DNA of 12,903 nt from a bacterium (GTDB taxonomy: Bacteria; UBP18; UBA7526), in contig JAUXAI010000036.1 of assembly GCA_030619985.1 (NCBI GenBank), positions 1 through 12,903 on the forward strand, written 5' to 3'. A program made the position numbers and the translations under genes. Below the pieces are notes generated by a model. It saw only the letters and a program-made list of their open reading frames with translations, was not told the DNA's origin and did no database searches. Shown here one piece after another: positions 216 to 12,261 of this stretch (positions within the stretch are counted from its first letter, which is position 1; each line of letters opens with the position of its first letter).

Positions 216-1862
216 TTAGAGATAGTGAGTCAATTTGGGGAGGGGGCCTAATACCTCTCTTAAATGTCGGAGGTAATGAAGGGAGTTCAAGTTTTTTCGG
301 GAGATGTTATTCCTCTGGGCCATTACTTGACGAGGAGGAAAAAATGTTCTAAAGATGAACCTCCCTTTAGCAAGTGGTCCTCTATTCAGAGAAAGATATA
401 ATAGATAGCTTAAGCCCGGGAATCGTCTGTTCCTTGAAATGAAGGATACGAACTTTTTCTCAAAATAGCCAAGCCTCTCTGGTTCGAGTCTCTTCAGGAT
501 ATGGGAGGGTATCTTCCTTCCTAAAAGTTTTTTTACAAGGTATAGGTTATAGTAGACCATACGATCTAGATTAAACATGAAACTATCTTTAATAATCCTT
601 TTCCAGTCCAGTCGGTCTTGGTATTTTTCGATCACCTCAGAGATGTCGCACAGAAGGATAAGCCTATCTAAGGAGTGCTTCATCCTCAGGGCATGCTCAG
701 AGAGATAGATAATGAGATGATGGGGTGCCAGGCTCAAGGCCTCTCTATCCGCTATCTTTATCTTCTCTGCCTCTTCCCAGATACCATCCATATCGATTCG
801 GGAAGAGAACATATGATTAGGAACACTAGAATTTACCAGATGCCAGTGGATGTGCAGAGGAATTGAGGCTTCTTTTTCTTTCCTGTAGTAGAAGAGGCTG
901 TTGAGATATCCCGAAATTGGCTTTTCTATGTAATCTAAGTAGTTATATGTGGTAGTATAGCCCAATCCCTTTAACCCTTCATGGGCCTGGAGAAGGTCTT
1001 TTCTTTTTACAAGGAGATCGATGTCGGACATAGACCTCAGGCCCGGATTCTTATAGATTTCTTCTACGAGAAAAGTGCCCTTTAAGACCAGGGCTGGGAT
1101 CCCTGCTTCTTTAAAAGCCTTCAAAACCCTACCCAATTCTTTCAAGAAGAATAGGTTGCGAGAAGTTATATTGAAGTATCTTTCCTCTAAAGTCTCCATG
1201 ATACTTGGAGGAACAATTTTTTCATCAAATCTCTTTAGATTATAATAAAAAAGGCCGGAGAGCCCTTCTCTCTCGGCCTTTTTTAATAAATAGTCCCAAT
1301 TTAGTCTTCTTCCGAGTAATCTTTTAATTCTATTCTTAATTTCTTTGTCTAACTTTGTTCGGGCGCAAAGGAGGATTAGTCTATCCTCAAGATCATTCTG
1401 AATTTTTGCGTGGCCAAAAAGACCTCGCTTTAGTTTACGGGCGATACCTAATACCAAGCCCTCAATCAGGAAAAGAATAGCCAAGACCGAATTGATAATT
1501 CTCCAGGATCTCTTTCTCAGATTAATGGTTCTGGATTTCTTCTTAATAGTGATTATCTTTCCTAATAGTTGCTCTTTAGGAAAGGGGGTATCGAGGAAGA
1601 GAGCATTGTCGCCTTTGGTAAGAAGGGACAATTCCCTCCGATACAAGAACCTATGGGTGTAGAGGGTTCCTTCCTTTTCGTAGAGGATGATATCTCCAGG
1701 AATAAGGTTTTCTGCTCGGCAGTCTTTGACCACTACCCTATCGCCGGGGTTGATCAAAGGTTGCATACTCTCCTGGGCAACTTTTAAAGAGACCTCTTTC
1801 CCGGATGTAATCTCTTCCCTCAAGAGATGAGCAACCGCTTCCTTAGTCGTGGAATTTAACAT
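216..1862 (-). CDS. S26-type signal-peptidase-like / nucleotidyltransferase-like fusion protein
   Basis: This 548-residue protein has two recognisable parts. Residues about 22-110 resemble S26B (SipW/archaeal-type) signal peptidases: S-M-Q-P-L at 32-36 with the candidate nucleophile S32, P-G-D at 39-41, T-H-R at 69-71 with the candidate catalytic H70, and K-G-D-N at 83-86. One hydrophobic segment follows at about 123-141. Residues about 170-480 resemble the nucleotidyltransferase family found in many peptide-modification loci (NTP_transf_5-like): L-K-G at 260-262, R-S-M-S-D-I-D-L at 276-283 with the likely metal ligands D280 and D282, and H-I-H-W-H at 337-341. The start is supported by GGAGG nine bases before the ATG. 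It lies downstream of the small peptide gene on the same strand, so a role in leader removal plus peptide or cofactor modification is plausible but not shown. The family normally lacks an attached protease domain, as far as I know. Confidence 0.85.
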   Translation of the reverse strand: MLNSTTKEAVAHLLREEITSGKEVSLKVAQESMQPLINPGDRVVVKDCRAENLIPGDIILYEKEGTLYTHRFLYRRELSLLTKGDNALFLDTPFPKEQLLGKIITIKKKSRTINLRKRSWRIINSVLAILFLIEGLVLGIARKLKRGLFGHAKIQNDLEDRLILLCARTKLDKEIKNRIKRLLGRRLNWDYLLKKAEREGLSGLFYYNLKRFDEKIVPPSIMETLEERYFNITSRNLFFLKELGRVLKAFKEAGIPALVLKGTFLVEEIYKNPGLRSMSDIDLLVKRKDLLQAHEGLKGLGYTTTYNYLDYIEKPISGYLNSLFYYRKEKEASIPLHIHWHLVNSSVPNHMFSSRIDMDGIWEEAEKIKIADREALSLAPHHLIIYLSEHALRMKHSLDRLILLCDISEVIEKYQDRLDWKRIIKDSFMFNLDRMVYYNLYLVKKLLGRKIPSHILKRLEPERLGYFEKKFVSFISRNRRFPGLSYLLYLSLNRGPLAKGRFIFRTFFPPRQVMAQRNNISRKNLNSLHYLRHLREVLGPLPKLTHYL

Positions 1863-1900
1863 CCTTTATATCCTCCAAGATATCTTTGTTACACTCCGAA

Positions 1901-1971
1901 TCTGATTACACAGATTCTTAAAAGCGATTACACAGATAAACCTAATCAATCTGTATCTTAATCTATTTAAT
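1901..1971. repeat. GATTACACAGAT-type dispersed repeat
   Basis: The motif GATTACACAGAT occurs twice in direct orientation (near 1904 and 1927), followed by an inverted relative, ATCAATCTGTATCTTAATC, near 1945. ACAGAT and ATCTGT can pair across about 11 bases. Such short repeats are common in gaps of some uncultured bacterial genomes. No coding capacity or terminator is evident. Confidence 0.5.
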
Positions 1972-1973
1972 CA

Positions 1974-1998
1974 AGTATCGGATTAGAATTCCGATACT
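1974..1998. promoter_or_regulatory. Perfect 9-bp inverted repeat upstream of the protease/nucleotidyltransferase gene
   Basis: AGTATCGGA (1974-1982) and TCCGATACT (1990-1998) are exact reverse complements separated by seven bases. The element lies about 112 bp upstream of the start at 1862, between that gene and the palindrome array. As RNA it would form a nine-pair hairpin with a seven-base loop. It lacks a following T-run on either strand, so it is not a standard intrinsic terminator; an operator or a 5'-leader hairpin is equally possible. Confidence 0.6.
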
Positions 1999-2024
1999 GC
2001 AAAATAATAGGATATATTATGTTG

Positions 2025-2244
2025 ACACAAGTTGATGGACGATCGTCGATGAGAATGTGCACCAAGATTAAATTGAATTGTTGAAATCACAAATTAATAG
2101 ACGATCGTCGATCGAAGTGTATAGGAAGTAAACTAAACAATTAAATCGATGCACAAATTGGGAGACGATCGTCGATGAAAGTGTGCAGAATATCAAGTTA
2201 AACTGAAAGCACAAACTGAGAGACGACCGTCGATGAAAGTGTGC
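2025..2244. repeat. Array of four 36-bp palindromic elements
   Basis: Copies start at 2025, 2087, 2151 and 2209 (spacings 62, 64 and 58 bp). In each, the core lies exactly 13 bp from the left end: GACGATCGTC at 2038, 2100 and 2164, and GACGACCGTC with one change at 2222. The outer arms are GCACA and TGTGC in the copies at 2151 and 2209 and are slightly altered in the other two. The spacers of 22-28 bp are AT-rich and only loosely alike. The array lies in the 547-bp gap between the small peptide gene and the protease/nucleotidyltransferase gene. The conserved spacing and symmetry imply selection on a protein-binding or structural unit. Confidence 0.9.
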
Positions 2245-2409
2245 TAAAAACAAACAGTAAAATTTAGGTTAAAGAATTTGAGGGAATCTTTTGCTGGGTA
2301 CTTCGATATCTACCGAGGTCGCAAGAGCTTTGTCACTTTCGAAGTCGAGTCCAATCAGATGTACTTGTTCGGATAGTTCTCTTCCGAAGTTTGATGGTTA
2401 ATCAGTTAA
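2245..2409. other. Gap downstream of the small peptide gene with a weak hairpin
   Basis: No gene with a start codon was found here. On the minus strand, 22 bases after the peptide stop codon, TTCGGA and TCCGAA (2383-2388 and 2368-2373 in plus coordinates) can form a six-pair hairpin with a nine-base loop; no T-run follows. ACTTCGA near 2299 and TCGAAGT near 2338 form a second, wider inverted pair. The minus strand is open from 2397 to 2272 in the same frame as the peptide gene, but without ATG, GTG or TTG. Confidence 0.5.
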
Positions 2410-2553
2410 TTAAGTAACGATTTTGGTACAGGCTCCATAGTCCGTCTGGCAGATCCAGTCTCCTTCGTAGGCAGAGGTACAAATTCCAGCCAAAGTCTCT
2501 ATTTCCTTCTGATAGACAATCCTGGGTTTTTGGTAGGTTTTTTTCTTGGGCAT
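2410..2553 (-). CDS. Candidate RiPP precursor peptide, 47 residues, three cysteines
   Basis: The product begins M-P-K-K-K-T and has a basic, polar N-terminal half followed by a short region with C25, C35 and C42. I infer a leader of about residues 1-23 and a core of about 24-47. The leader contains Y-Q-K-P-R-I at 7-12, matching the Y-x-x-P-x-(L/I) element by which PqqD-type recognition domains bind lasso-peptide leaders (established for lasso peptides). The core has the segments CTSAYEGDWIC and QTDYGACTKIVT, with Asp, Glu, Trp and Tyr residues between the cysteines. The start follows an unusually strong ribosome binding site. Radical SAM, PqqD-like and HPr-kinase-like genes lie upstream and the S26-like fusion downstream, all on the same strand. 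It has no signal peptide and no Gly-Gly or obvious cleavage site. I do not recognise a named precursor family. Three cysteines make thioether or other side-chain links plausible products of the SPASM enzyme. Confidence 0.8.
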   Translation of the reverse strand: MPKKKTYQKPRIVYQKEIETLAGICTSAYEGDWICQTDYGACTKIVT

Positions 2554-2560
2554 TGTGTTT

Positions 2561-2570
2561 CACCTCCCCC
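2561..2570 (-). promoter_or_regulatory. Strong ribosome binding site of the small peptide gene
   Basis: The minus strand reads GGGGGAGGTG here, close to a full anti-16S match, with GGAGG nine bases from the ATG at 2553. It is the main reason to accept this short gene as translated, and it fits a precursor made in larger amounts than its enzymes. Confidence 0.85.
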
Positions 2571-2577
2571 CTATATA

Positions 2578-2672
2578 GAAATCAAATATTAAAAATTAAA
2601 TATCAAAATTACACATCATAGGAAAATCAAAATGTAAAAATCAAAAATCAAGATTACATATTAAATTGTAAA
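2578..2672. repeat. AT-rich dispersed repeat upstream of the small peptide gene
   Basis: The stretch is built from variants of AAATCAAATATTAAAAATT and AAAATCAAAATGTAAAAATC. A near-identical block begins at about 12784, and an opposite-orientation relative lies at 3018-3048. It fills most of the gap between the four-helix-bundle gene and the peptide gene. Confidence 0.65.
2615..2644 (-). promoter_or_regulatory. Possible sigma70-like promoter for the small peptide gene
   Basis: On the minus strand TTGATT (2644-2639) and TATGAT (2620-2615) are 18 bases apart, about 62 bases before the peptide start codon. The match to TTGACA/TATAAT is 4/6 and 5/6. Because the region is an AT-rich repeat, such matches arise easily, so this is only a candidate. 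A local promoter would uncouple the precursor from the upstream enzymes. Confidence 0.25.
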
Positions 2673-2673
2673 G

Positions 2674-3045
2674 TTATCTCTTTCCCTTGAGGGTTAGGAT
2701 ACTTGAAGCAAAGATATTGGCGATCTCGTCAAGTTCTTTTAGGAACCAGGCAACTTCTTCCGGTTTAGCTCGCTTGCTATCACGAAGTAAGGCGAACCAC
2801 AGCTTACTCTCGTTCGCCGATTTCAGAGACGTATTGAAATAGTTGATAAAATCTTTCTTGCTGCTTGCTGACTCTCCTTCAATGTAATTTCCAAGAATGC
2901 TTGTACCACTCCGTAGTAATTGATCACCAATTCTTCTTGAAACATTATCTTTCGGTAATCTATCTATAAATTCTATAAGCTTTAGAACAAAGTTATATAA
3001 TCTTTTTTTGAACTCCTCTTTAAATTTTGATTTGTCATTTTCCAT
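2674..3045 (-). CDS. Four-helix-bundle protein (S23 rRNA intervening-sequence-like family)
   Basis: The 123-residue product, starting M-E-N-D-K-S-K-F, matches the small helical family first described as encoded in 23S rRNA intervening sequences. Recognisable elements are R-R-I-G-D-Q-L-L-R-S-G-T-S-I, then N-Y-I-E-G, S-K-K-D-F-I-N-Y, and S-A-N-E-S-K-L-W-F-A-L-L. The biochemical role of the family is not established; structures show a four-helix bundle that forms oligomers. A longer reading from 3117 exists, but its extra 24 residues are translated repeat sequence and would overlap the radical SAM gene by 35 bp, so I prefer the ATG at 3045. Neither start has a clear ribosome binding site. The gene sits between the radical SAM enzyme and the precursor; since this family appears in many unrelated contexts, it may be a passenger rather than part of the peptide pathway. 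Confidence 0.85.
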   Translation of the reverse strand: MENDKSKFKEEFKKRLYNFVLKLIEFIDRLPKDNVSRRIGDQLLRSGTSILGNYIEGESASSKKDFINYFNTSLKSANESKLWFALLRDSKRAKPEEVAWFLKELDEIANIFASSILTLKGKR

Positions 3046-3115
3046 TTTAATCTTTAATTTTTGATTTGTCGCTTTTCTGTGCTCATCTGTTCTTTTCATC
3101 CGTGCTGATCCGTGC
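3018..3115. repeat. Dispersed repeat block overlapping two gene ends
   Basis: Positions 3018-3048 match 12845-12876 at 30 of 32 bases (CTTTAAATTTTGATTTGTC and onward), a copy of the AT-rich repeat. Next to it, 3075-3115 holds the CTGTTCTTTTCATCCGTGC / TGATCCGTGC type of short repeat. The first supplies the probable start codon and first codons of the four-helix-bundle gene; the second encodes the last codons of the radical SAM gene. Confidence 0.65.
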
Positions 3116-4126
3116 ATTCTCGTAGGTGGTTTTGCGGGCGCGGGCTAAGGTGCAGGCGGCTCTTGAGGGGCCGAAGAGGTCGCCATCCTCCAAGAGAGCG
3201 AGGCCGGAACAGCGGAAACAGTAGAAACGAAGAGGGCAGGTGGAACACTCTTTTAGATCAGAGAACTTGGTGGCCCTGAGTCTCTTCAGGATGGGTGCCT
3301 GCCATACTTCGCTTAAGGACTGCCTAGTTAGATTGCCGCAACTCTCTCTTATGCTGACACAGGGGTAGGTCTCACCATAAGGGGAAATGTAGATGGTATT
3401 TAATCCGGCACCACACAAAGGGCTATCGTCTGGTATTTCTATTGGTTCCCACTTCGATGTCCTACTATTTGAGGAGAAAAAATCGATCAGGTCATTCTCT
3501 GTAAGTCTATGGGCAAGGGGCTTTTTAGATCCATCATTACAAGGTGTAATACCGGGGTCAAAGACAAAGCCAGCGCCTATTTCTTGAGCAAAGGCTTTTA
3601 ATCTCTCAAATTCTCCTACATTCTCTTTCATTAGAATAGAGTTGATGGCAACTTTTATCCCTCTCTCCTTGAGAAGTATGAGGGCCTTAATAGTCTTTCG
3701 CTGAGAACCTTTTGATCTGGTAATGGTATCATGGATAGCAGGAACAGTAGCATAGAGGCTCATCCTGACAGATATGGGGTTTAAGTCTTCAATTTTATCT
3801 GCTATCTTGGGAGTAATTAAGGTTCCGTTGGTGAGAAGGCGGAGGACAAAGTCTTTTCCCCGGGCATAAGAAGCAATCTCAAAGAAATCCTCACGAGTGA
3901 AAATCTCTCCTCCACTAAAGGTGAGACAGAGGGTGTTTGCTTTTGCCAGCTGATCCAGAATGGACTTTATCTCTTCTGTGGAGAGTTCTTTTCTTCCTTT
4001 TTCCTGAGTGACGTAGCAATGGACACACTTCAGATTACACTTATAGGTAAGGTCGAAGTGGACAGTGAATGGGATGTTTTCATCTACTGTTTTTTTGACA
4101 ATTTTTTGATAATAATCTAACTTCAT
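3083..4126 (-). CDS. Radical SAM/SPASM peptide-modifying enzyme
   Basis: The 347-residue protein has the radical SAM iron-sulfur motif C-N-L-K-C-V-H-C at 30-37 and the S-G-G-E motif at 71-74, which helps bind S-adenosylmethionine. Its C-terminal half has the cysteine pattern of a SPASM domain, which binds auxiliary Fe-S clusters: C238, C256, C263, C294, C297, C303, C306 and C325, including C-S-T-C-P-L-R-F-Y-C-F-R-C. SPASM enzymes mature peptides and proteins, for example by forming thioether or carbon-carbon links. With a PqqD-like partner encoded just upstream and a cysteine peptide downstream, that small peptide is the likely substrate (inference). GAGGAG six bases before the ATG supports the start. 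The last 11 or so residues (from E-N-A-R-I-S-T-D) come from a dispersed repeat and probably lie outside the fold. Confidence 0.92.
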   Translation of the reverse strand: MKLDYYQKIVKKTVDENIPFTVHFDLTYKCNLKCVHCYVTQEKGRKELSTEEIKSILDQLAKANTLCLTFSGGEIFTREDFFEIASYARGKDFVLRLLTNGTLITPKIADKIEDLNPISVRMSLYATVPAIHDTITRSKGSQRKTIKALILLKERGIKVAINSILMKENVGEFERLKAFAQEIGAGFVFDPGITPCNDGSKKPLAHRLTENDLIDFFSSNSRTSKWEPIEIPDDSPLCGAGLNTIYISPYGETYPCVSIRESCGNLTRQSLSEVWQAPILKRLRATKFSDLKECSTCPLRFYCFRCSGLALLEDGDLFGPSRAACTLARARKTTYENARISTDEKNR

Positions 4127-4143
4127 GGTTTACTCCTCAGAGC

Positions 4144-4215
4144 AAGTTGATAAGTTGATTGGTTAATAAGTTAATAAGTTTCTGGCCAACTTGTTTCCTT
4201 GTTAACTTGTATTCT
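4144..4215. repeat. Two opposed arrays with an 8-bp period
   Basis: Positions 4144-4183 consist of five 8-bp units close to AAGTTRAT. After a short linker, about 4191-4222 consists of four 8-bp units starting TTGT (such as TTGTTAAC), which is roughly the reverse-complement type. The pair could fold back on itself. It fills the gap between the PqqD-like and radical SAM genes. A related array is at 12273-12319. Confidence 0.7.
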
Positions 4216-4222
4216 TGTTATC

Positions 4223-4498
4223 TTACTTTAGAGTCATCATTCCCTTCTTGGCCAGACTCCTTACAAATTCTGTAGTGTCTTTGAGGGCTTTCTTCTTGGT
4301 GACCTTGAATTCTTTGAAGATGGTATCTGCGATCTTTTTTATGCTTCTCTTTCCATTGGAGAGTTCCCAGATGCGGCTTCCTACTTCATTCAGGACGTGC
4401 ACCCGGCTCTTTTTCAATAAAACGATAACCGCTTCGCCATCTATTATGCGGGATGCGGTCTGGGAGGATTTACAAGGGATTTTGTTTTCGATAGCCAT
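4223..4498 (-). CDS. PqqD-family peptide-binding (RiPP recognition) protein
   Basis: The 91-residue product has the size and pattern of the PqqD fold: a strand-rich first half (G-E-A-V-I-V-L-L, then S-R-V-H-V-L-N-E-V-G-S-R-I-W-E-L at about 31-46) and a helical second half beginning S-I-K-K-I-A-D-T-I. In known systems PqqD-like proteins bind the leader of a precursor peptide and deliver it to a radical SAM/SPASM enzyme. Here that enzyme is the next gene, 96 bp downstream. The N-L-x-x-x-(G/S)-x-x-I-W type motif is a hallmark of the family and is present as V-L-N-E-V-G-S-R-I-W. GAAGGAG a few bases before the ATG supports the start. The protein could instead serve the HPr-kinase-like neighbour; both may apply. 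Confidence 0.88.
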   Translation of the reverse strand: MAIENKIPCKSSQTASRIIDGEAVIVLLKKSRVHVLNEVGSRIWELSNGKRSIKKIADTIFKEFKVTKKKALKDTTEFVRSLAKKGMMTLK

Positions 4499-4548
4499 TG
4501 CTTCTCCTTCTAACTTAACCCTTACCCCTTTATTTAGTTATATATGGC

Positions 4549-5394
4549 TCACTGGGTAATTAATTCTTTTTCTATGCATCGCCAGAAGGTTTTGTTGGGG
4601 AGGAAGTGGAGTTCGTAGCAGGGGGTCTCTTTTATGAGATGAGAGGAGATGTTTAATAGTTTATCGATCGGTTGATGTTCTTTAGGGATGCCGGGAAGGG
4701 TGAGGACCTCGGCCATTCCCTGAGAATAAGAGAACCTCTTCAAATAAGTCTTGTTATCTTTAACTAGCTTGAATAATCCAGCGATCTCAAAAATTCCCCT
4801 TTTCCCCTGACTCTCCTTTAGTCTATCCCAATAGGGAGTTCCAAAGACCTTGCAGGAGCCGTTGACTCTCTTAATGACTATCAGGTCGTCACTCAAAATA
4901 GTATAATCCTTTGACAACTGAGCAACTGTTGATTTACCGCTCTGGGAGGGGCCGAAAAAGATATAGGCCCTATTATCTTTTACTATCCCGCAAGCGTGAA
5001 GGACTAAGCCACCTTCTCTGGTGAGCAAAATATTATAAATGATCCTCAAGAAACTGGCCAGGGATTCTCTGGCGTAAGAAGGCAGAATGTCTATTTCTCC
5101 CTTCCTCTTTGATAGATCCATTCTTCCTAAAAAATTACTTCCTTTAACAATGGCTTCCTTCCCATAAAAATAAAGGCCCGGAATAGAGGATTCCTGGGCC
5201 TTGAGGTTATCTACTATCTTTACCCCTATATTAATCTCTGCTGATTTGTTTGACTCGCCCGCCTTCGTTAAAACTTCGGCGGATAAAAACTCTGAGAAAG
5301 TTTCTCTCAACTGCTGAAATAAGAATAAGAAGGGGTCATCTAACTCTAAAGAGGTGACGATATTCGCCACCTCTATTTTCAGTTCATATTTCAT
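4549..5394 (-). CDS. HPr-kinase-like P-loop protein
   Basis: The 281-residue protein carries a Walker A motif, G-P-S-Q-S-G-K-S at 148-155, preceded by L-V-L-H-A-C-G at 130-136 and followed by L-S-D-D at 167-170 and F-G-T-P-Y-W at 184-189. This order is the HPr kinase C-terminal type seen in HprK-related proteins of peptide-modification loci. The first 110 residues match nothing I recognise and probably form a separate domain. True HprK phosphorylates a serine of HPr, but no HPr gene is present, and related kinases in some lasso-peptide clusters phosphorylate the peptide itself. A peptide or partner kinase is therefore a reasonable inference; activity is unproven. AGAGGA before the ATG supports the start. 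The PqqD-like gene starts 50 bp downstream. Confidence 0.85.
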   Translation of the reverse strand: MKYELKIEVANIVTSLELDDPFLFLFQQLRETFSEFLSAEVLTKAGESNKSAEINIGVKIVDNLKAQESSIPGLYFYGKEAIVKGSNFLGRMDLSKRKGEIDILPSYARESLASFLRIIYNILLTREGGLVLHACGIVKDNRAYIFFGPSQSGKSTVAQLSKDYTILSDDLIVIKRVNGSCKVFGTPYWDRLKESQGKRGIFEIAGLFKLVKDNKTYLKRFSYSQGMAEVLTLPGIPKEHQPIDKLLNISSHLIKETPCYELHFLPNKTFWRCIEKELITQ

Positions 5395-5502: not shown

Positions 5503-8500
5503 TTATTCCCAGATGGGGTATTTGTGGGGAGGTTTTGTGGCTCTCTTGGTTAGCCAGAGGATGGGCTTTAACCCTGCCCTCATCAGGGCTTTGAGGGCCT
5601 TCTTCTTTTCAATGAATCTGGATATGGGTGGACTGTGGCGATAGTAGAAGCGGACGAAGGCTCTACCTTTTCTATTGGTGAGCAGGCATTCATCCCGGAA
5701 GTTGCGGAATACTTCTACCTCCTCTGCCAGAGAGGTGCCATAGGCAGCGGAGGCGATGGGACAGGTAAGGCCATAGGTATGGCCATCACCGGCAGGGAAA
5801 GGAATCTTTAATCCTAAAGCAGGATCACCCAATAGGCTGAAGGTCTCAGAGATGTCTTCATAACCGCTACCATTGGCCAAGAAGGTGGTGTGAGCCTGGG
5901 CGATGGCATCACCAAGGATGTGGGTGGTACCTCCGAAGAAGGCCTTGAATAATCCCTCATCAAGTATCTTCTGGCCGTAAGGGCATGACGCACCACTTGA
6001 AGCAAAGACCCCAATGGCTCCTTTATTCTCTGCTTTCAGAAGTTTCTCCGCTAAGGAGTCTGTAGTGCGATAGCTGAAGAGGCCATTGGTGCAGCTCATG
6101 CTAACAAAGAAAGGTAATTTCTCCCCATTGGTAAGGGAATCAACATCGCTTGGGGATTGGAAGAGATACTCGTGTGCCCAAAAATCCAGCCACCCATGTC
6201 CCGCATAGTTAACAATGGCTACCCCGTCATTGATGGCATTCTTGATGGCAATTTTGCAAGCGCTTGCATCCCCATTATGATCAGTAGCGAGGTAAGATGT
6301 GGTTACCTGACAGGGACCAGTGGTGAGACCATTATTTGTGGTCTCAAATGTAATATCATCATCATCTGCGACCAGAAGGATCTTATTCTCCCAGGTATTG
6401 GTAGAAGAAGTCCCCTCATAGGCTAAGATTTTATCAACGATGTACTTTAATTCATCGCTGGTTCTTACGGGAAGGCGGCCGATATAGATATCGGGGATAT
6501 GGTCACCGCCACTTACCCAGGAATACCAGTTGTCATTGGCGGTCTCACCGAAGAACGTAGTATAGGAGGGATAGGTGGGGAGATGGGCAAAGGAGCCATT
6601 TCCCTTATTATCCTTATAATCGTAGGTAGCATCCCCGACCAATAGACAATATTTTGGTTTCGGATCTTGCCAGTTATCGTAGGCATAGGTCAAGAAGTCC
6701 TTTATTGCCTTAGGATTGAAGACCCCATGATTGAATTCATTGTAGATATCGTTTACCTTTACCTTCTTGACCCTTAATCCCTTAACTTCTCTGTGGTTAA
6801 CTAGAGAAGTTAGGTTATCATCATCATAGAAATCATCATTGCTCACGATGATGATGTAGTCCGCCCCATTATCTTCAGAACGTATGCCAGAGTTTATATA
6901 TTCCTCAATGGATGTAGGTGTTAATGGCGTCTGTGCTAAATAGGTAGTGGCTCCCGTGATAGTGTCGTTGAACTTTGCAGTATAACCCTCTACCGTAAAG
7001 GTAATATGCTGGGGACTACTCGCATCTGTGATATCAAAGATCTCTATATCGCCAGTAGTGAAACCTGATATCTCAAAGCGGTGGTCGGTAGGAGTCTCAT
7101 TGCTGAACTTCAGGGAGTCATTCTCTGCTACAAAACTGCGGTAGTAATCGATCTTTATAGTATCCAGCATAATTAGGTCATACTTTGCCCCGGTATCGCG
7201 AAGTGACTGAACGGTTATCGTCTGAGTTCGGTCTCCTTCTCCAGAATTGAGATAGGACTGGGTGAAATCGGCATTCAGGGTTGTCTCTCCCTTCCCATCC
7301 CAGTAAATCCCATCGGGATCTCCGACTTGATTATCATTCACATAGATTTTAGCATGGTTATTATCCTCTGGAGGGATATCGAAGTAGCCACGCAATGTCA
7401 CCCTTATTCGAGCATTTTCTTCTGTAGAGACAACATCTTTGAGAGTGACAGTATAATTCTGAGAGACCTCGGCCAAGGGGTCATTTGGTTCATAGGTTAC
7501 TGAAGCATACTTATTGAAGAACCATCTGTCAAAGGTATCAGCTCCCGGGCAGAGGCCATCGTAGCGTAGATTTTCCTCTTCTTCCTTTAGAGAGTAAAAG
7601 GCACTCTCTGGAGTATCGCTGGGGCCGGTATTATTTTTCTTATTTATTCTGGAACCAGTCGCACCACCAGAGGTTAGCCAATAGGCGTTGGTGGTAGTAT
7701 ATTTGGTATCCTTTGCCTTTCCATAGAACTCGATATAGTCGTTAGAATCGAATACATCGGCTTCATCCTCATCATGAACATAGATGGGGATCTCGCTTCC
7801 CTCATTATAGAGCTTGAAGGTGCTCAAGGAAGCAGAGAGGTCCATCCCAGCACTTGTGAGATAGGTATGGGTCAATCTATAGATTCCATCTTGGCTCAGG
7901 GATATCTTATAGGCTGGATTGGGGAAATCAGAGGGGAAAGAGGGGCTGGGGTCTGCCCAGGCAGGAGTAGAAAATAGAGAGGGAATCTTCGCTATTCGAT
8001 GGACAGAGGTACCTCCAGAGGCGAAGTCAAGTCTCACCCTTATCTTTTTATAGAATTTGAGTTCCCTGGTTACTGGATTGAACTGTATGGGGTAGAGTTT
8101 TATCTGAACGACCTTCTGCTCCCTTTTATATCCTGTGAAGCCCGGTTCTGCTAAATTGTCGGGATAGAAGGCATCTGAACTATAGGCTATTTCATCCTTA
8201 GTAAATATCTCTTTCACATACTTAACATTCTCCGATTTCCTGGGCTCTTGGGTGGGGACAGGATAGAGGTTATAATCAGGGAAAGTGGTAGATTCAGTAT
8301 CAAGGATGCTGATCTCAATTGAGGAATCAGAGGGAACCCCAAGCAGGGCACCCTTCATGGGGACCTGGGGCTTCCCTATCTCAGAGGAGTGGCCGTGGAT
8401 ATATCCCGGGATGGAGATTCTCTGATAGGTGATGCCCTCCTCAATCTTCTCCTCTTCATCAAATTCCTCTGTAGTGAGTTCTAAGGTTACTCCAAATTCA

Positions 8501-11500
8501 TCGGATTCAATGATCTCTATTCCTTCCTTGGGGATCTCCTCAATCTCTGGTGGACGAGGAGATATGACTTCCTCTATGTCAGAAATAAAGGGATTGGTAT
8601 CGTTCCGAAACTCCTCATAGTTGGTGAAGCCATCATTATCCGGGTCCAGGCCACCATCGTTTATATTAGGATTAAGACCATACCTCTTTTCCCAGCCATC
8701 TGGTATGCCATCGTTATCACTATCTATCCCTGGTGTGGCCCAGACCGGACCGTGCAGGGTCTTCTTACCAAAGCAGTCGACATCCTCCAACTTATAATAG
8801 TAGGTAGTTCCATCGAAGACATCGCTATCCAGATACCAGTATATTTTACCAATTACAGAGTATAATAGTCCGGGAATAAGGGAATCATTCAATTTAGTAT
8901 AGGGACCATCTCTATTCTCACTTCTATAGATATTGAAGCCGGCATTCCCTACCTCGCTGGCTGTCCGCCACCAGAGCCAGACACCCCTCTCATAACTTAG
9001 GGCCTGGAAGTCTGCCAAGCCCACCAGGGTAGGCCAATATTCATTACCGGCAATCCCGAAGCATTCCTGACTATTCATAGAATTGGTTTCCACCGGAGTT
9101 ACTGTTCCCCAGGTAGAGCCATTCCACTTCTGGACATCGATGTCAGGACCGGCAGTAGCATCATCATCTGAGGTCATGAGCATGATCTCGTATGTGCTCG
9201 GATCAGAGGCTAAGGCAATCCACTGGGGAACCGCTCCTACAGTAGTGGCAGGGGCCTCTGGTGATGACCAGGTGCTTCCGTTCCAGGTACAATACTTGGG
9301 AATGTTAGTATTATCGCTCCAGACAATCATGCCCTTTTGGTTGATGGTCGTCTCATAGGCAACATCGAAGTATCTTTTACCAATGCCTGGAGCAGTGAGC
9401 TCCACCTCCTGATAATTATCCCAGGTAGAGCCGTTCCAGATCTCAACTTGAATATCATTCAGGTTATCCTGGGTACCTAAAATAATCTCATCTGAACCTG
9501 GCTTAGAAGCCATCTTTGCCCAGCGCTGGTCACCGGCCCCTCGAGCAGTACAGTTTCCTCCTGTCCCCCAACTGCTCGCTTCCCAGATGCTATAGCGCGG
9601 TATATCATCAACATCTTGATAGACTACTAATGCGTGGCCAGATAACTGTTCATAGGCAACATCAAAGCTCTGATTAGTAGCAACATCACAGGCAACGTTT
9701 ACTTTCGTTGCATTACCCCAGGTGGAACCATTCCAGACCTGGGCATAGATATTCTTATTACTGTCTTCGGTAGCTAAAATGATCTCATTGGAATCGGTTT
9801 TTGGCTTGGCCTCTAATCTGACCCACGCCAGATTACCGTCACCAATGGTTGCGCACTGCTCTCCAGCGCTCCAGGTAGAACCATTCCAGAATTGATAGTA
9901 GGGGATGGTTTCAGCAGAATCATTCATGTAGACCACCATAATATTCCCAGACTGCCGCTCGTAGGCGATATCAAACCACCTCCTGTCAACAGTAGCACCA
10001 CTATTGTCTATTATTGTGGTTACTGTTCCCCAGCTATCGCCATCGTAAATCTGTACCTTTAGAGCTTCGAGATCGTCCAGGGTGCCCAGGATATATTTAT
10101 TCGCCTTAGGGTCTGCCCGGACGATGACCCAGTGGGCATCGGCATCTGTTCCCAGGCTTCCCGCCTCACCCTCACTAGACCAGTTCGTTCCATCCCAGGT
10201 GCGATACGAGGGGTTAATGTTCGGTTCCGATCCTTCGTAGTAGGCCATCAGAGCATTGATAACGGCTTTGGCAGCCGTGGTGAAGGTTCCATAGCCAGCC
10301 TCATCATGAGTATGGCCGCATTGGGCGCTTTCATTCCCCACCTTATCCTTTGCTTTTACCCGCCAGTAATAGACGGTCTCCCCATCAAGCGATGGGCTCC
10401 AGCTGGTGCTGGACTGCCAATCGCTGTGCTGCTCATTTTCGGTGAATCCAATATTGGTGGCTAGCTGGAAGTAGTACTGGACACTACCCGAGCCAGAATC
10501 CGCGGCAGTTAGAGCCACCAGGGGAGTAGATGTTGGTACATCCAGATCATTGTTGCCTGGGGTATTACATCCCACATTGGTGGGAACAGCACCATCCACA
10601 GTATACTTCCAGGCGGTATCGGGGCCGGTGGTGAGGTAGTACATCACGGTGTCAACCTTGAACGCCACCTGGACGGTATTTCCATCAGCAATCTCTGCAT
10701 TATTATGGTCGATGGTAAACTGGTAGGAGCCTGGCCATGTGCCAGAGTCTTTAGCTACACTGGTGTCAGATGATCCATCACCATCCGGTAGGGCTTCAGT
10801 ATCCCACCAGAGCACCGGGTCGGCAGAAGGTTCGTTAAGCAGGGTCATATTAACGACATGATCGGCTTTATCATTTAAGTAGTCACCGGCCGTAAAGCCT
10901 GAGGTAATGGGGTTCTCTCCATCGGTGATGCTGTTGACGGTCACTGCCGAAGGGGTATACTGCCTATAGGCAAACATGGCACATTCTCCGTGATATTCGG
11001 AGCCGAGCGTCTCACGTGCCCCATCATAGCTCCAGCCAGTGCCCTCCACATACCTCTGGCTACAGATACCATAACCGGTAAGTTCAATGGTTATACACAT
11101 AACCTCATCTGCATCTGGATCGGATAAAAGACGAATCCATTCTATGTCATCCCCAGCATTGTCTGTACAATCGGTAATCGATCCCCAGGTTGTGCCATTC
11201 CAGATGTTATACGAGATGTGCAGAAGACTTGCATCCGCAGAAGCGGCGGCCATACACGTACCCGTTGTCCCTATCCAGGCGATGCTCGTATCGCGATAGG
11301 TGGCGGTCTCACAGGTAGCATCCTCTGGTCCAGAAAGACCCCAGGAGGAACCATCCCAGATGAAGTATCTCCAGTCAGCACCGCTATCAATGCTCGTCAG
11401 GCCGATCTTGTCTGAGGCTGAGGAGGGATCGGAAGCAGCCTGGAGCCAGTAGACTGTATTGTTAATAAGCGGCCCATTTATCAGTTCACTTCCCCAACTA

Positions 11501-12261
11501 CCGCCACTATATATCCTGTAGCGTGCCGTCGTGACGATGTCCTCCCCATAGATGAGCAGGCAGTCACCACTATTATTCTCCCAGGCAAGGGCAAAGCACT
11601 CCCTGAGATCATTGGAGGCTGTTATCTCTGCCTCCAGGGTATCCTCCCAGACACTCCCTGTCCAGTGGGCAGTCCAGATGTCATCATCACCATTCACCAT
11701 AGCCATCATGATCTCATTAGAATCCTTCTTTGGTGCCAGGGCGATATATGTTGGTTTCCCAGTTCCTGCAGTGGTCAGATCTAACTCAGTCGGCCCAGTC
11801 CAGGTACCTCCATCCCAGGTATAATACCAAGGGTCCTCCTCATCCCTATTGTAGAGTACCAGAGCATCCCCAGAGGTCTGTTCATAGGCGATGTCGAACT
11901 TTCTCCTAAGATAAACAGCATCGCTATCAGTAATGTTTAGGGCGTCTCCCCAACTGCCTCCGTCCCAGACCTGAATATGGATATGGCCTGATGCATCAAT
12001 CGCCCCCAGGATATACTCATCCCTTGTTGGACAGGCCTTGAGGACGACCCAATAATTTAGAGCGCTGCTATCCGTAGCAGTGGCAGCCTCGCTTACCCAG
12101 CTTGTTCCATTCCAGGACTGATACTTTGGTATATTATCTGAAGTATCACCATAAGCGAGCATGCCCTCAGTTGCATATGCCCTACTGTTCCAGCTTAGAA
12201 GAAGGCCAGCAGAGAGGAATAATATCACTATTAAGTTCTGGAAAAATCTTCTTTTCTTCAT
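5503..12261 (-). CDS. Giant secreted gingipain-type (C25) cysteine peptidase-like protein
   Basis: The 2252-residue protein starts with a signal peptide (M-K-K-R-R, hydrophobic core, probable cut after A-Y-A near 31). Two blocks of about eight repeats with W-(N/D)-G-(S/T)-x-W-G motifs (about 35-430 and 665-1045) suggest beta-propeller-like folds. Between them, about 555-660, is a fibronectin-III-like stretch (Y-Y-W-R-V-K-A-K-D). Next come another such domain (about 1085-1175), a calcium-binding D-x-D-x-D-G segment (about 1178-1222: D-S-D-N-D-G and D-P-D-N-D-G) and a C25 propeptide-like region (about 1240-1430). The peptidase domain, about 1797-2150, has N-Y-A-G-H-G with H2022 and S-M-S-C-T-N-G with C2057; the 35-residue spacing fits the gingipain His/Cys pair. 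The C-terminus (C2167-P-I-A-S-A-A-Y-G, later F-R-N-F-R-D and Y-Y-R-H-S-P-P) resembles the 'CFIATAAYG' C-terminal box. GAGGTG precedes the ATG. Its substrate and any link to the peptide cluster are unknown. Confidence 0.92.
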   Translation of the reverse strand: MKKRRFFQNLIVILFLSAGLLLSWNSRAYATEGMLAYGDTSDNIPKYQSWNGTSWVSEAATATDSSALNYWVVLKACPTRDEYILGAIDASGHIHIQVWDGGSWGDALNITDSDAVYLRRKFDIAYEQTSGDALVLYNRDEEDPWYYTWDGGTWTGPTELDLTTAGTGKPTYIALAPKKDSNEIMMAMVNGDDDIWTAHWTGSVWEDTLEAEITASNDLRECFALAWENNSGDCLLIYGEDIVTTARYRIYSGGSWGSELINGPLINNTVYWLQAASDPSSASDKIGLTSIDSGADWRYFIWDGSSWGLSGPEDATCETATYRDTSIAWIGTTGTCMAAASADASLLHISYNIWNGTTWGSITDCTDNAGDDIEWIRLLSDPDADEVMCITIELTGYGICSQRYVEGTGWSYDGARETLGSEYHGECAMFAYRQYTPSAVTVNSITDGENPITSGFTAGDYLNDKADHVVNMTLLNEPSADPVLWWDTEALPDGDGSSDTSVAKDSGTWPGSYQFTIDHNNAEIADGNTVQVAFKVDTVMYYLTTGPDTAWKYTVDGAVPTNVGCNTPGNNDLDVPTSTPLVALTAADSGSGSVQYYFQLATNIGFTENEQHSDWQSSTSWSPSLDGETVYYWRVKAKDKVGNESAQCGHTHDEAGYGTFTTAAKAVINALMAYYEGSEPNINPSYRTWDGTNWSSEGEAGSLGTDADAHWVIVRADPKANKYILGTLDDLEALKVQIYDGDSWGTVTTIIDNSGATVDRRWFDIAYERQSGNIMVVYMNDSAETIPYYQFWNGSTWSAGEQCATIGDGNLAWVRLEAKPKTDSNEIILATEDSNKNIYAQVWNGSTWGNATKVNVACDVATNQSFDVAYEQLSGHALVVYQDVDDIPRYSIWEASSWGTGGNCTARGAGDQRWAKMASKPGSDEIILGTQDNLNDIQVEIWNGSTWDNYQEVELTAPGIGKRYFDVAYETTINQKGMIVWSDNTNIPKYCTWNGSTWSSPEAPATTVGAVPQWIALASDPSTYEIMLMTSDDDATAGPDIDVQKWNGSTWGTVTPVETNSMNSQECFGIAGNEYWPTLVGLADFQALSYERGVWLWWRTASEVGNAGFNIYRSENRDGPYTKLNDSLIPGLLYSVIGKIYWYLDSDVFDGTTYYYKLEDVDCFGKKTLHGPVWATPGIDSDNDGIPDGWEKRYGLNPNINDGGLDPDNDGFTNYEEFRNDTNPFISDIEEVISPRPPEIEEIPKEGIEIIESDEFGVTLELTTEEFDEEEKIEEGITYQRISIPGYIHGHSSEIGKPQVPMKGALLGVPSDSSIEISILDTESTTFPDYNLYPVPTQEPRKSENVKYVKEIFTKDEIAYSSDAFYPDNLAEPGFTGYKREQKVVQIKLYPIQFNPVTRELKFYKKIRVRLDFASGGTSVHRIAKIPSLFSTPAWADPSPSFPSDFPNPAYKISLSQDGIYRLTHTYLTSAGMDLSASLSTFKLYNEGSEIPIYVHDEDEADVFDSNDYIEFYGKAKDTKYTTTNAYWLTSGGATGSRINKKNNTGPSDTPESAFYSLKEEEENLRYDGLCPGADTFDRWFFNKYASVTYEPNDPLAEVSQNYTVTLKDVVSTEENARIRVTLRGYFDIPPEDNNHAKIYVNDNQVGDPDGIYWDGKGETTLNADFTQSYLNSGEGDRTQTITVQSLRDTGAKYDLIMLDTIKIDYYRSFVAENDSLKFSNETPTDHRFEISGFTTGDIEIFDITDASSPQHITFTVEGYTAKFNDTITGATTYLAQTPLTPTSIEEYINSGIRSEDNGADYIIIVSNDDFYDDDNLTSLVNHREVKGLRVKKVKVNDIYNEFNHGVFNPKAIKDFLTYAYDNWQDPKPKYCLLVGDATYDYKDNKGNGSFAHLPTYPSYTTFFGETANDNWYSWVSGGDHIPDIYIGRLPVRTSDELKYIVDKILAYEGTSSTNTWENKILLVADDDDITFETTNNGLTTGPCQVTTSYLATDHNGDASACKIAIKNAINDGVAIVNYAGHGWLDFWAHEYLFQSPSDVDSLTNGEKLPFFVSMSCTNGLFSYRTTDSLAEKLLKAENKGAIGVFASSGASCPYGQKILDEGLFKAFFGGTTHILGDAIAQAHTTFLANGSGYEDISETFSLLGDPALGLKIPFPAGDGHTYGLTCPIASAAYGTSLAEEVEVFRNFRDECLLTNRKGRAFVRFYYRHSPPISRFIEKKKALKALMRAGLKPILWLTKRATKPPHKYPIWE

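Follow-up and report, generated by a model that had tools for sequence, protein, structure and literature searches.

What kind of product is encoded by the short cysteine peptide gene and the enzyme genes surrounding it on contig JAUXAI010000036.1, a 12,903-nucleotide stretch of bacterial DNA that is here called the window? The window is a complete contig (G000:C9) of a 1.25 Mb genome that is about 84% complete, and its host phylum was represented by six genomes in the searched set. A first-pass annotation, made from the sequence alone, had recognized a 47-residue cysteine peptide, a radical S-adenosylmethionine (SAM)/SPASM enzyme, a PqqD-like protein, an HPr-kinase-like protein and an S26/nucleotidyltransferase fusion, and had proposed that they form an undescribed cluster for a ribosomally synthesized and post-translationally modified peptide (RiPP). 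Our analysis revealed that this is almost certainly a RiPP locus, that it belongs to a radical SAM RiPP family that we could not assign to a named class, and that the same families recur in Chloroflexota and a further phylum, so that the family spans several phyla.

Gene content, precursor peptide and distribution

Open reading frame (ORF) and family searches recovered all five families in order on the minus strand, with the coordinates and assignments that had been given to them, and a purine-rich Shine-Dalgarno-like stretch was observed 5′ of every gene start, that of the peptide gene being GGGGGGAGGTG. The extent proposed earlier (216–5394) encloses these five genes, but its upper limit did not stand since the system reaches a C25 peptidase gene at 5503–12261, which had been overlooked, leaving the gene set incomplete. 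The genes of the locus are the following:

216–1862, minus strand: S26-type peptidase/nucleotidyltransferase fusion (S26/S24-type domain; PF14907 NTP_transf_5, 3.6e-53)
2410–2553, minus strand: precursor peptide, 47 aa, three cysteines (conservation in the sister species; leave-out profile)
3083–4126, minus strand: radical SAM/SPASM peptide maturase, 347 aa (PF04055, 1.4e-24; SPASM PF13186, 7e-12)
4223–4498, minus strand: PqqD-type RiPP recognition element (RRE), 91 aa (PF05402, 1.1e-13)
4549–5394, minus strand: HPrK/PEPCK-superfamily kinase, 281 aa (H-K-D-D motif; NCBIfam ScmC/HprK-related models below cut-off; model fold)
5503–12261, minus strand: secreted C25 (gingipain/PorU-type) peptidase, 2252 aa (PF01364, 1.7e-85; CFI-box C-terminal domain; propeptide)

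The precursor, MPKKKTYQKPRIVYQKEIETLAGICTSAYEGDWICQTDYGACTKIVT, comprises a leader of about residues 1–24 (with Y7-x-x-P10, E19 and A22) and a core with C25, C35 and C42, with Thr47 as the last residue. The peptide at the equivalent position in the sister species (G003; locus L005) is MPKKKTYRKPKIIYQKEIETLAVVCSSAKEPPDGPCRTSVPEGCTNLYS. Over the first 26 codons the two genes show eight synonymous and six replacement differences, with Y, P, E, A and C being fixed, and the cores differ in both length and sequence; a constrained leader with a free core is the usual pattern of a RiPP. A leave-out profile, made from 16 Chloroflexota peptides only, with the window and sister peptides excluded, found the window peptide at E = 4.5e-12 as the sole real match among 284 six-frame stretches (the next at 0.23), and the peptides of the sister species (9.4e-13), L020 (2.9e-6) and L167 (6.8e-7) were each the sole real match of their locus. 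Judged from its sequence, the 47-residue ORF is a genuine gene and not a chance one, because it is kept in frame in the sister species and is matched by the leave-out profile.

The conserved Y-x-x-P leader and cysteines that the first-pass annotation had suggested looking for in homologous loci were found, and an alignment of 20 peptides shows a short precursor with a conserved leader and a variable core. In window numbering, P10, A22, C25 and C42 are invariant, Y7 is nearly so and E19 is present in 19 of the 20. The description as a three-cysteine peptide holds for the window, but only C25 and C42 are conserved family-wide, together with a C-terminal Ser (17 peptides) or Thr (three). In this alignment the middle cysteine, C35, is common only to the window and the sister species, and extra cysteines occur elsewhere in the peptides of L020, L155 and L167.

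When 84,980 species genomes were scanned with the C-terminal portion of the radical SAM protein, the best matches behind the sister species were mostly from Chloroflexota, together with one unclassified bacterium, Yes70-31. Among 396 genomes of the Chloroflexota class, a profile search recovered 55 at E ≤ 1e-60, and searching the Yes70-31 phylum added more members. Each neighborhood was scored, in six-frame translation, with a profile for every one of the five families. In the resulting Chloroflexota set of 38 loci (35 genomes, radical SAM score of about 320 bits or more), a PqqD gene lies within 5 kb at 32 loci and an HPrK-like gene at 25, with several of the losses being contig ends. Short YxxP peptides were detected at 31 of the 38 loci, and three of the remaining seven are cut by a contig end, so the consistent lack of a short cysteine peptide that would have spoken against the earlier proposal was not observed.

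Synteny was seen in at least two further lineages, Chloroflexota and a second phylum. The sister species has the identical order of HPrK, PqqD, radical SAM, peptide and S26/nucleotidyltransferase genes, and in two genomes of the second phylum (L020 and L167) the kinase, PqqD, radical SAM and peptide genes follow the order of the window, with the nucleotidyltransferase and S26 genes coming after them either way round. In the radical SAM tree, the window pair joins the two Chloroflexota groups (support 85/87), with other YxxP-peptide systems set apart, and the placement of L020 and L167 is weak. In the second Chloroflexota group (group 1; L010–L019 and others), most leaders are of a W-x-x-P type, an L-G-P-L-x-x-S stretch recurs and a cysteine lies close to the C-terminus. 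Viral contigs yielded no relative of the radical SAM protein, and the best plasmid matches, which share only about 30% identity with it, are part of other radical SAM peptide systems.

Probable maturation enzymes, the C25 peptidase and the proposed scheme

The radical SAM-cluster and SPASM cysteines are conserved in 26 relatives, and the enzyme has the auxiliary-cluster cysteines of the SPASM-type maturases known from sactipeptides and ranthipeptides. Its model (predicted local distance difference test, pLDDT, 92) gave as best structural matches CteB (Z 25.9, root-mean-square deviation (rmsd) 4.3, 314 residues aligned), SuiB, SkfB and ChlB (Z 25.5 each), all of which are peptide maturases, while the PADLOC matches reflect general viperin-like radical SAM similarity only. 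A grouping with enzymes of known unrelated function, which had been named as grounds for rejecting the proposal, was not found, as no named NCBIfam cut-off was reached and the model lies nearest to peptide maturases. The modeled fold supports an enzyme that modifies a peptide and favors no single reaction. From the sequences, a cysteine-based modification seems fairly likely, with a thioether being preferred because two cysteines are fixed core residues. The enzyme is encoded together with a discrete PqqD-type leader binder, for which PF05402 is above cut-off.

The kinase carries the motifs LHACG, GKST and SDD in the expected order, giving the H-K-D-D motif of the lasso kinases, and all of 22 relatives keep H, K and the first D. 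Its model (pLDDT 89) shows a PEPCK fold (Z 16, rmsd about 4), which is consistent with the HPrK/PEPCK superfamily. HPr kinase itself is not among the matches listed, an absence that speaks neither for nor against the assignment. The HPrK-like enzymes PadeK and ThcoK of lasso peptides phosphorylate the C-terminal Ser and require the His-Lys-Asp-Asp motif, and the nucleotidyltransferase PsmN attaches hexose to the phosphate (PMC9266682), while the similar lasso kinase BsfK acts on a ring Ser (PMC10368454). DD-type kinases were paired with Ser/Thr-ending precursors in 14 of 14 cases, whereas of the ten D-E-type kinases whose precursor is known, counting L167, four were so paired. Among the other radical SAM systems that the scan retrieved, outside this clade, a Ser/Thr end was observed at 13 of 18 loci with a kinase versus none of 26 without one (Fisher p = 1.7e-7). 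In four window-like Chloroflexota genomes whose locus lacks a kinase gene, a strong homologue is encoded elsewhere. By analogy with the lasso kinases, we lean towards a kinase that phosphorylates the C-terminal Ser/Thr.

The fusion protein comprises an S26-type Ser/His peptidase at about residues 20–133, a hydrophobic segment at about 122–142 and a PF14907 nucleotidyltransferase at 187–448. The serine of SM-x-P and the histidine of HR are kept in 20 of 20 aligned proteins; a Ser/His catalytic pair is also that of Ser/His signal peptidases. S26 and nucleotidyltransferase are encoded separately in the relatives examined, and their fusion was seen only in the genus of the window. The S26 domain is a natural candidate for the leader peptidase, an assignment to which its sequence lends about an even chance.

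The C25 gene lies directly upstream of the kinase gene, scores 288 bits with Peptidase_C25 against a cut-off of 23, and is the only C25 gene in its genome. In Chloroflexota, the gene after the peptide at L014 is a C25 gene (5e-74), and a C25 gene was found downstream of the peptide on the same strand at 24 of 32 loci, counting those that offered 3 kb or more of room or gave a match, in some loci as two tandem genes; five loci of other radical SAM clades (L021, L040, L163–L165) have one as well. Chance adjacency is very unlikely because C25 genes are so few per genome, namely one in the window's genome and one to eight in the Chloroflexota genomes checked (3.2–8 Mb). The peptidase is quite probably a functional partner of the cluster. 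To our knowledge, the role of gingipain/PorU-type proteases outside Bacteroidota is little understood.

From these observations a maturation scheme can be proposed. The PqqD protein would bind the Y-x-x-P leader and hand the precursor to the radical SAM/SPASM enzyme, which would modify the core; a thioether made from C25 and/or C42 is the likeliest outcome. The HPrK-like enzyme would place a phosphate on the side chain of the C-terminal Thr/Ser, in the manner of PadeK and ThcoK acting on lasso peptides, and the nucleotidyltransferase domain may extend the phosphate, as PsmN does with hexose. The membrane-attached S26 domain would remove the leader, and the adjacent secreted C25 peptidase may act outside the cell, as a second processing protease or as the target of the peptide. 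Taken as a whole, from leader binding to the C25 partner, we consider this scheme somewhat likely to be right. A broader proposal can be put forward only tentatively: in a widespread RiPP family, one peptide would receive both radical SAM chemistry and lasso-type C-terminal (glyco)phosphorylation, and the family would be genetically tied to one or two secreted C25 (gingipain/PorU-type) peptidases, of which the modified peptide would be the activator, inhibitor, anchor or substrate.

Several observations weigh against the scheme. There is no known product or activity, and we infer each chemical step, the step order, export, the biological role and any action of or on the C25 peptidase. The operon contains no exporter gene. 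The sister species has C25 genes, none of them at the cluster, and no C25 gene was found near L020 or L167, so that a C25 partner is not obligatory at the locus. Group-1 Chloroflexota kinases are of a D-E-N type and their precursors end in many different residues, and at L167 a D-E kinase accompanies a precursor ending in Ser. The kinase/C-terminus label is also clustered on the tree (10 changes versus 26 in shuffles), and the Fisher test ignores relatedness; the correlation is therefore partly phylogenetic, and it is supporting evidence and not proof.

Other explanations were weighed as well. The same RiPP cluster might perform another radical SAM reaction (a C-C or ether crosslink, epimerization or excision), with the cysteines serving for disulfides or metal binding. 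The structural matches do not separate thioether formation from such reactions, SuiB and ChlB being tied with CteB and SkfB, and the closely related group-1 peptides have a single cysteine, near the C-terminus; yet the two cysteines are the sole invariant core residues of the window-type family and hence the likeliest sites, and we hold another reaction to be rather unlikely. A little less likely still is a metabolic or regulatory kinase, or an ATP-driven maturation factor, with the Ser/Thr end kept for recognition by a protease or exporter. Such a role would agree with the best folds, which are PEPCK rather than a peptide kinase, and with the group-1 kinases, which have no fixed C-terminal acceptor, but the kinase gene adjoins the PqqD and radical SAM genes across phyla, and the H-K-D-D motif, the correlation with C-terminal Ser/Thr and the published precedent from lasso clusters argue for action on the peptide.

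The architecture of PqqD plus a radical SAM/SPASM enzyme is also that of PQQ (pyrroloquinoline quinone) and mycofactocin, and among solved structures the radical SAM protein is matched best by PqqE in sequence, so the peptide might be broken down to yield a small redox molecule. The core residues of cofactor precursors stay fixed, however, whereas here two species of the same genus differ in the core and the constraint lies on the leader; the secreted peptidase gene and membrane-attached S26 domain also point outward, making a cofactor very improbable. Least of all do we expect a lasso cluster with its cyclase and B2 peptidase located elsewhere. A YxxP leader, a PqqD-type B1-like protein, a kinase and a nucleotidyltransferase all occur in lasso clusters, but the B2 peptidase family PF13471 is absent from three genomes of the genus (75–93% complete), on which ground a lasso peptide was rejected, and a radical SAM gene is the constant component instead. 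As the first-pass annotation had stated, no ORF for an asparagine-synthetase-like lasso cyclase occurs in the window, nor does one occur in the sister locus or at any related locus.

Repeats, insertion slot and other peptide systems

Two further features were observed in the window:

2674–3117: S23/IVP four-helix gene, unrelated filler between the radical SAM gene and the peptide gene
2025–2244: four copies of a 36-bp imperfect palindrome around GACGATCGTC, between the peptide gene and the fusion gene, with two more at 91–182

The S23/IVP gene was considered as a component and rejected, as the sister species has an unrelated GxxExxY (PDDEXK_3) gene in this slot (L005 3069–3452). A/T-rich repeats (ATTAAAAATTAAATATCAAAA) border the S23/IVP gene in the window, and the two species seem to share, between the radical SAM and peptide genes, a slot into which mobile filler genes insert.

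The palindromes have the form GCACA..AGACGATCGTC..TGTGC, are spaced about 60 bp apart and flank both sides of the S26/nucleotidyltransferase gene, with palindromes at equivalent places in the sister species (L005 3890–4146, 5937–6008 and 6861–6876). Genome-wide, they occur in the window, on contig C30, which appears to continue the window beyond position 1, and once on contig C10. They are likely regulator sites, tied to the operon by association only, and perhaps the operators of the neighboring PaaX-like gene. Just beyond the PaaX-like gene, both species carry an ABC-2 exporter pair on the opposite strand (L005 6909–8670; contig C30 in the window's genome), which might export the product.

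Other radical SAM peptide systems were also encountered. A distinct kinase-free system (L006 5392–5508, L031, L043, L044, L045, L049, L058, L060 and L067) has a core, AECRPNSKPSGRPC(N/K)PP(G/K)P(S/G)GR, that is almost identical in an E. coli plasmid, Pectobacterium, Bacteroidota, Oscillospiraceae and Desulfatitalea; a core so nearly fixed across phyla is unusual for a RiPP. A megablast check against complete E. coli genomes gave no match. In a related Clostridia group, mostly Lachnospiraceae (L038, L039, L046, L048 and L053), the peptides end in CGxGPCGRPCSxxxA and adjoin the radical SAM gene. Two Omnitrophota loci (L022 and L024) each combine three radical SAM genes and an HPrK-like gene with PqqD-like matches, and their long multi-cysteine peptides have Thr/Ser as the last residue; no NCBIfam model was above cut-off for the L024 enzymes tested.

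Comparison with known systems

RiPP classes are defined by their chemistry. That the locus could not be assigned to a named class was borne out by NCBIfam (June 2026), in which no model reached its cut-off for the radical SAM protein, kinase, PqqD protein or peptide of the window or of the tested relatives. In the open-access literature, HPr kinase, radical SAM and RiPP were joined in one paper only, and there in different clusters, and nothing was found joining a C25 peptidase with radical SAM, though subscription papers lie largely outside this search and an earlier description is possible. The family keeps a fixed gene set across Chloroflexota and two little-known lineages and lacks a curated model, which makes it a direct target for discovering new enzyme chemistry. 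The lasso-type marking of a C-terminal Ser/Thr is predicted to be a general module that includes radical SAM RiPPs, and the C25 link, if true, would tie RiPP biology to secreted gingipain/PorU-type proteases.

SynChlorMet (ScmC/D/E/F) is the nearest named system, as it also combines HPrK-like, PqqD-like and radical SAM/SPASM proteins in one cassette. It has two radical SAM models (ScmE and ScmF), whereas the window has one radical SAM gene, and all scores are far below the cut-offs, with 27.3 of 125 bits for ScmC, 27.5 of 100 for ScmD, 104.9 of 400 for ScmE and 79.8 of 400 for ScmF. The GeoRSP and PQQ systems share the PqqD partner and the radical SAM/SPASM enzyme, and none of their models reaches its cut-off either (GeoRSP 104 of 400 and 28.2 of 100 bits, PqqE 97.3 of 381, PqqD 34.9 of 46). 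Sactipeptides and ranthipeptides (AlbA, SkfB, CteB, StsB/StsC) have in common with the locus the SPASM fold and a cysteine-containing core, and in some cases an RRE partner. Here, in contrast, the enzyme is stand-alone with 347 aa, the PqqD gene is separate, two or three cysteines are present, and a kinase, a nucleotidyltransferase and the C25 linkage are added. The curated sactipeptide models stay below cut-off (StsB 144 of 625, AlbA 98.7 of 850 bits); the maturase type fits these classes, the thioether itself being a prediction from sequence.

With the lasso clusters of paeninodin (PadeK/ThcoK), pseudomycoidin (PsmK/PsmN) and BsfK/BsfN, the locus shares the YxxP leader with a PqqD-type binder, the H-K-D-D kinase, a nucleotidyltransferase gene and a precursor with a C-terminal Ser/Thr. 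It differs from them in having, instead of a cyclase and a B2 peptidase, a radical SAM/SPASM enzyme, a candidate S26 leader peptidase and core cysteines, and it would work like a hybrid of a radical SAM RiPP and a kinase-tailored lasso peptide.

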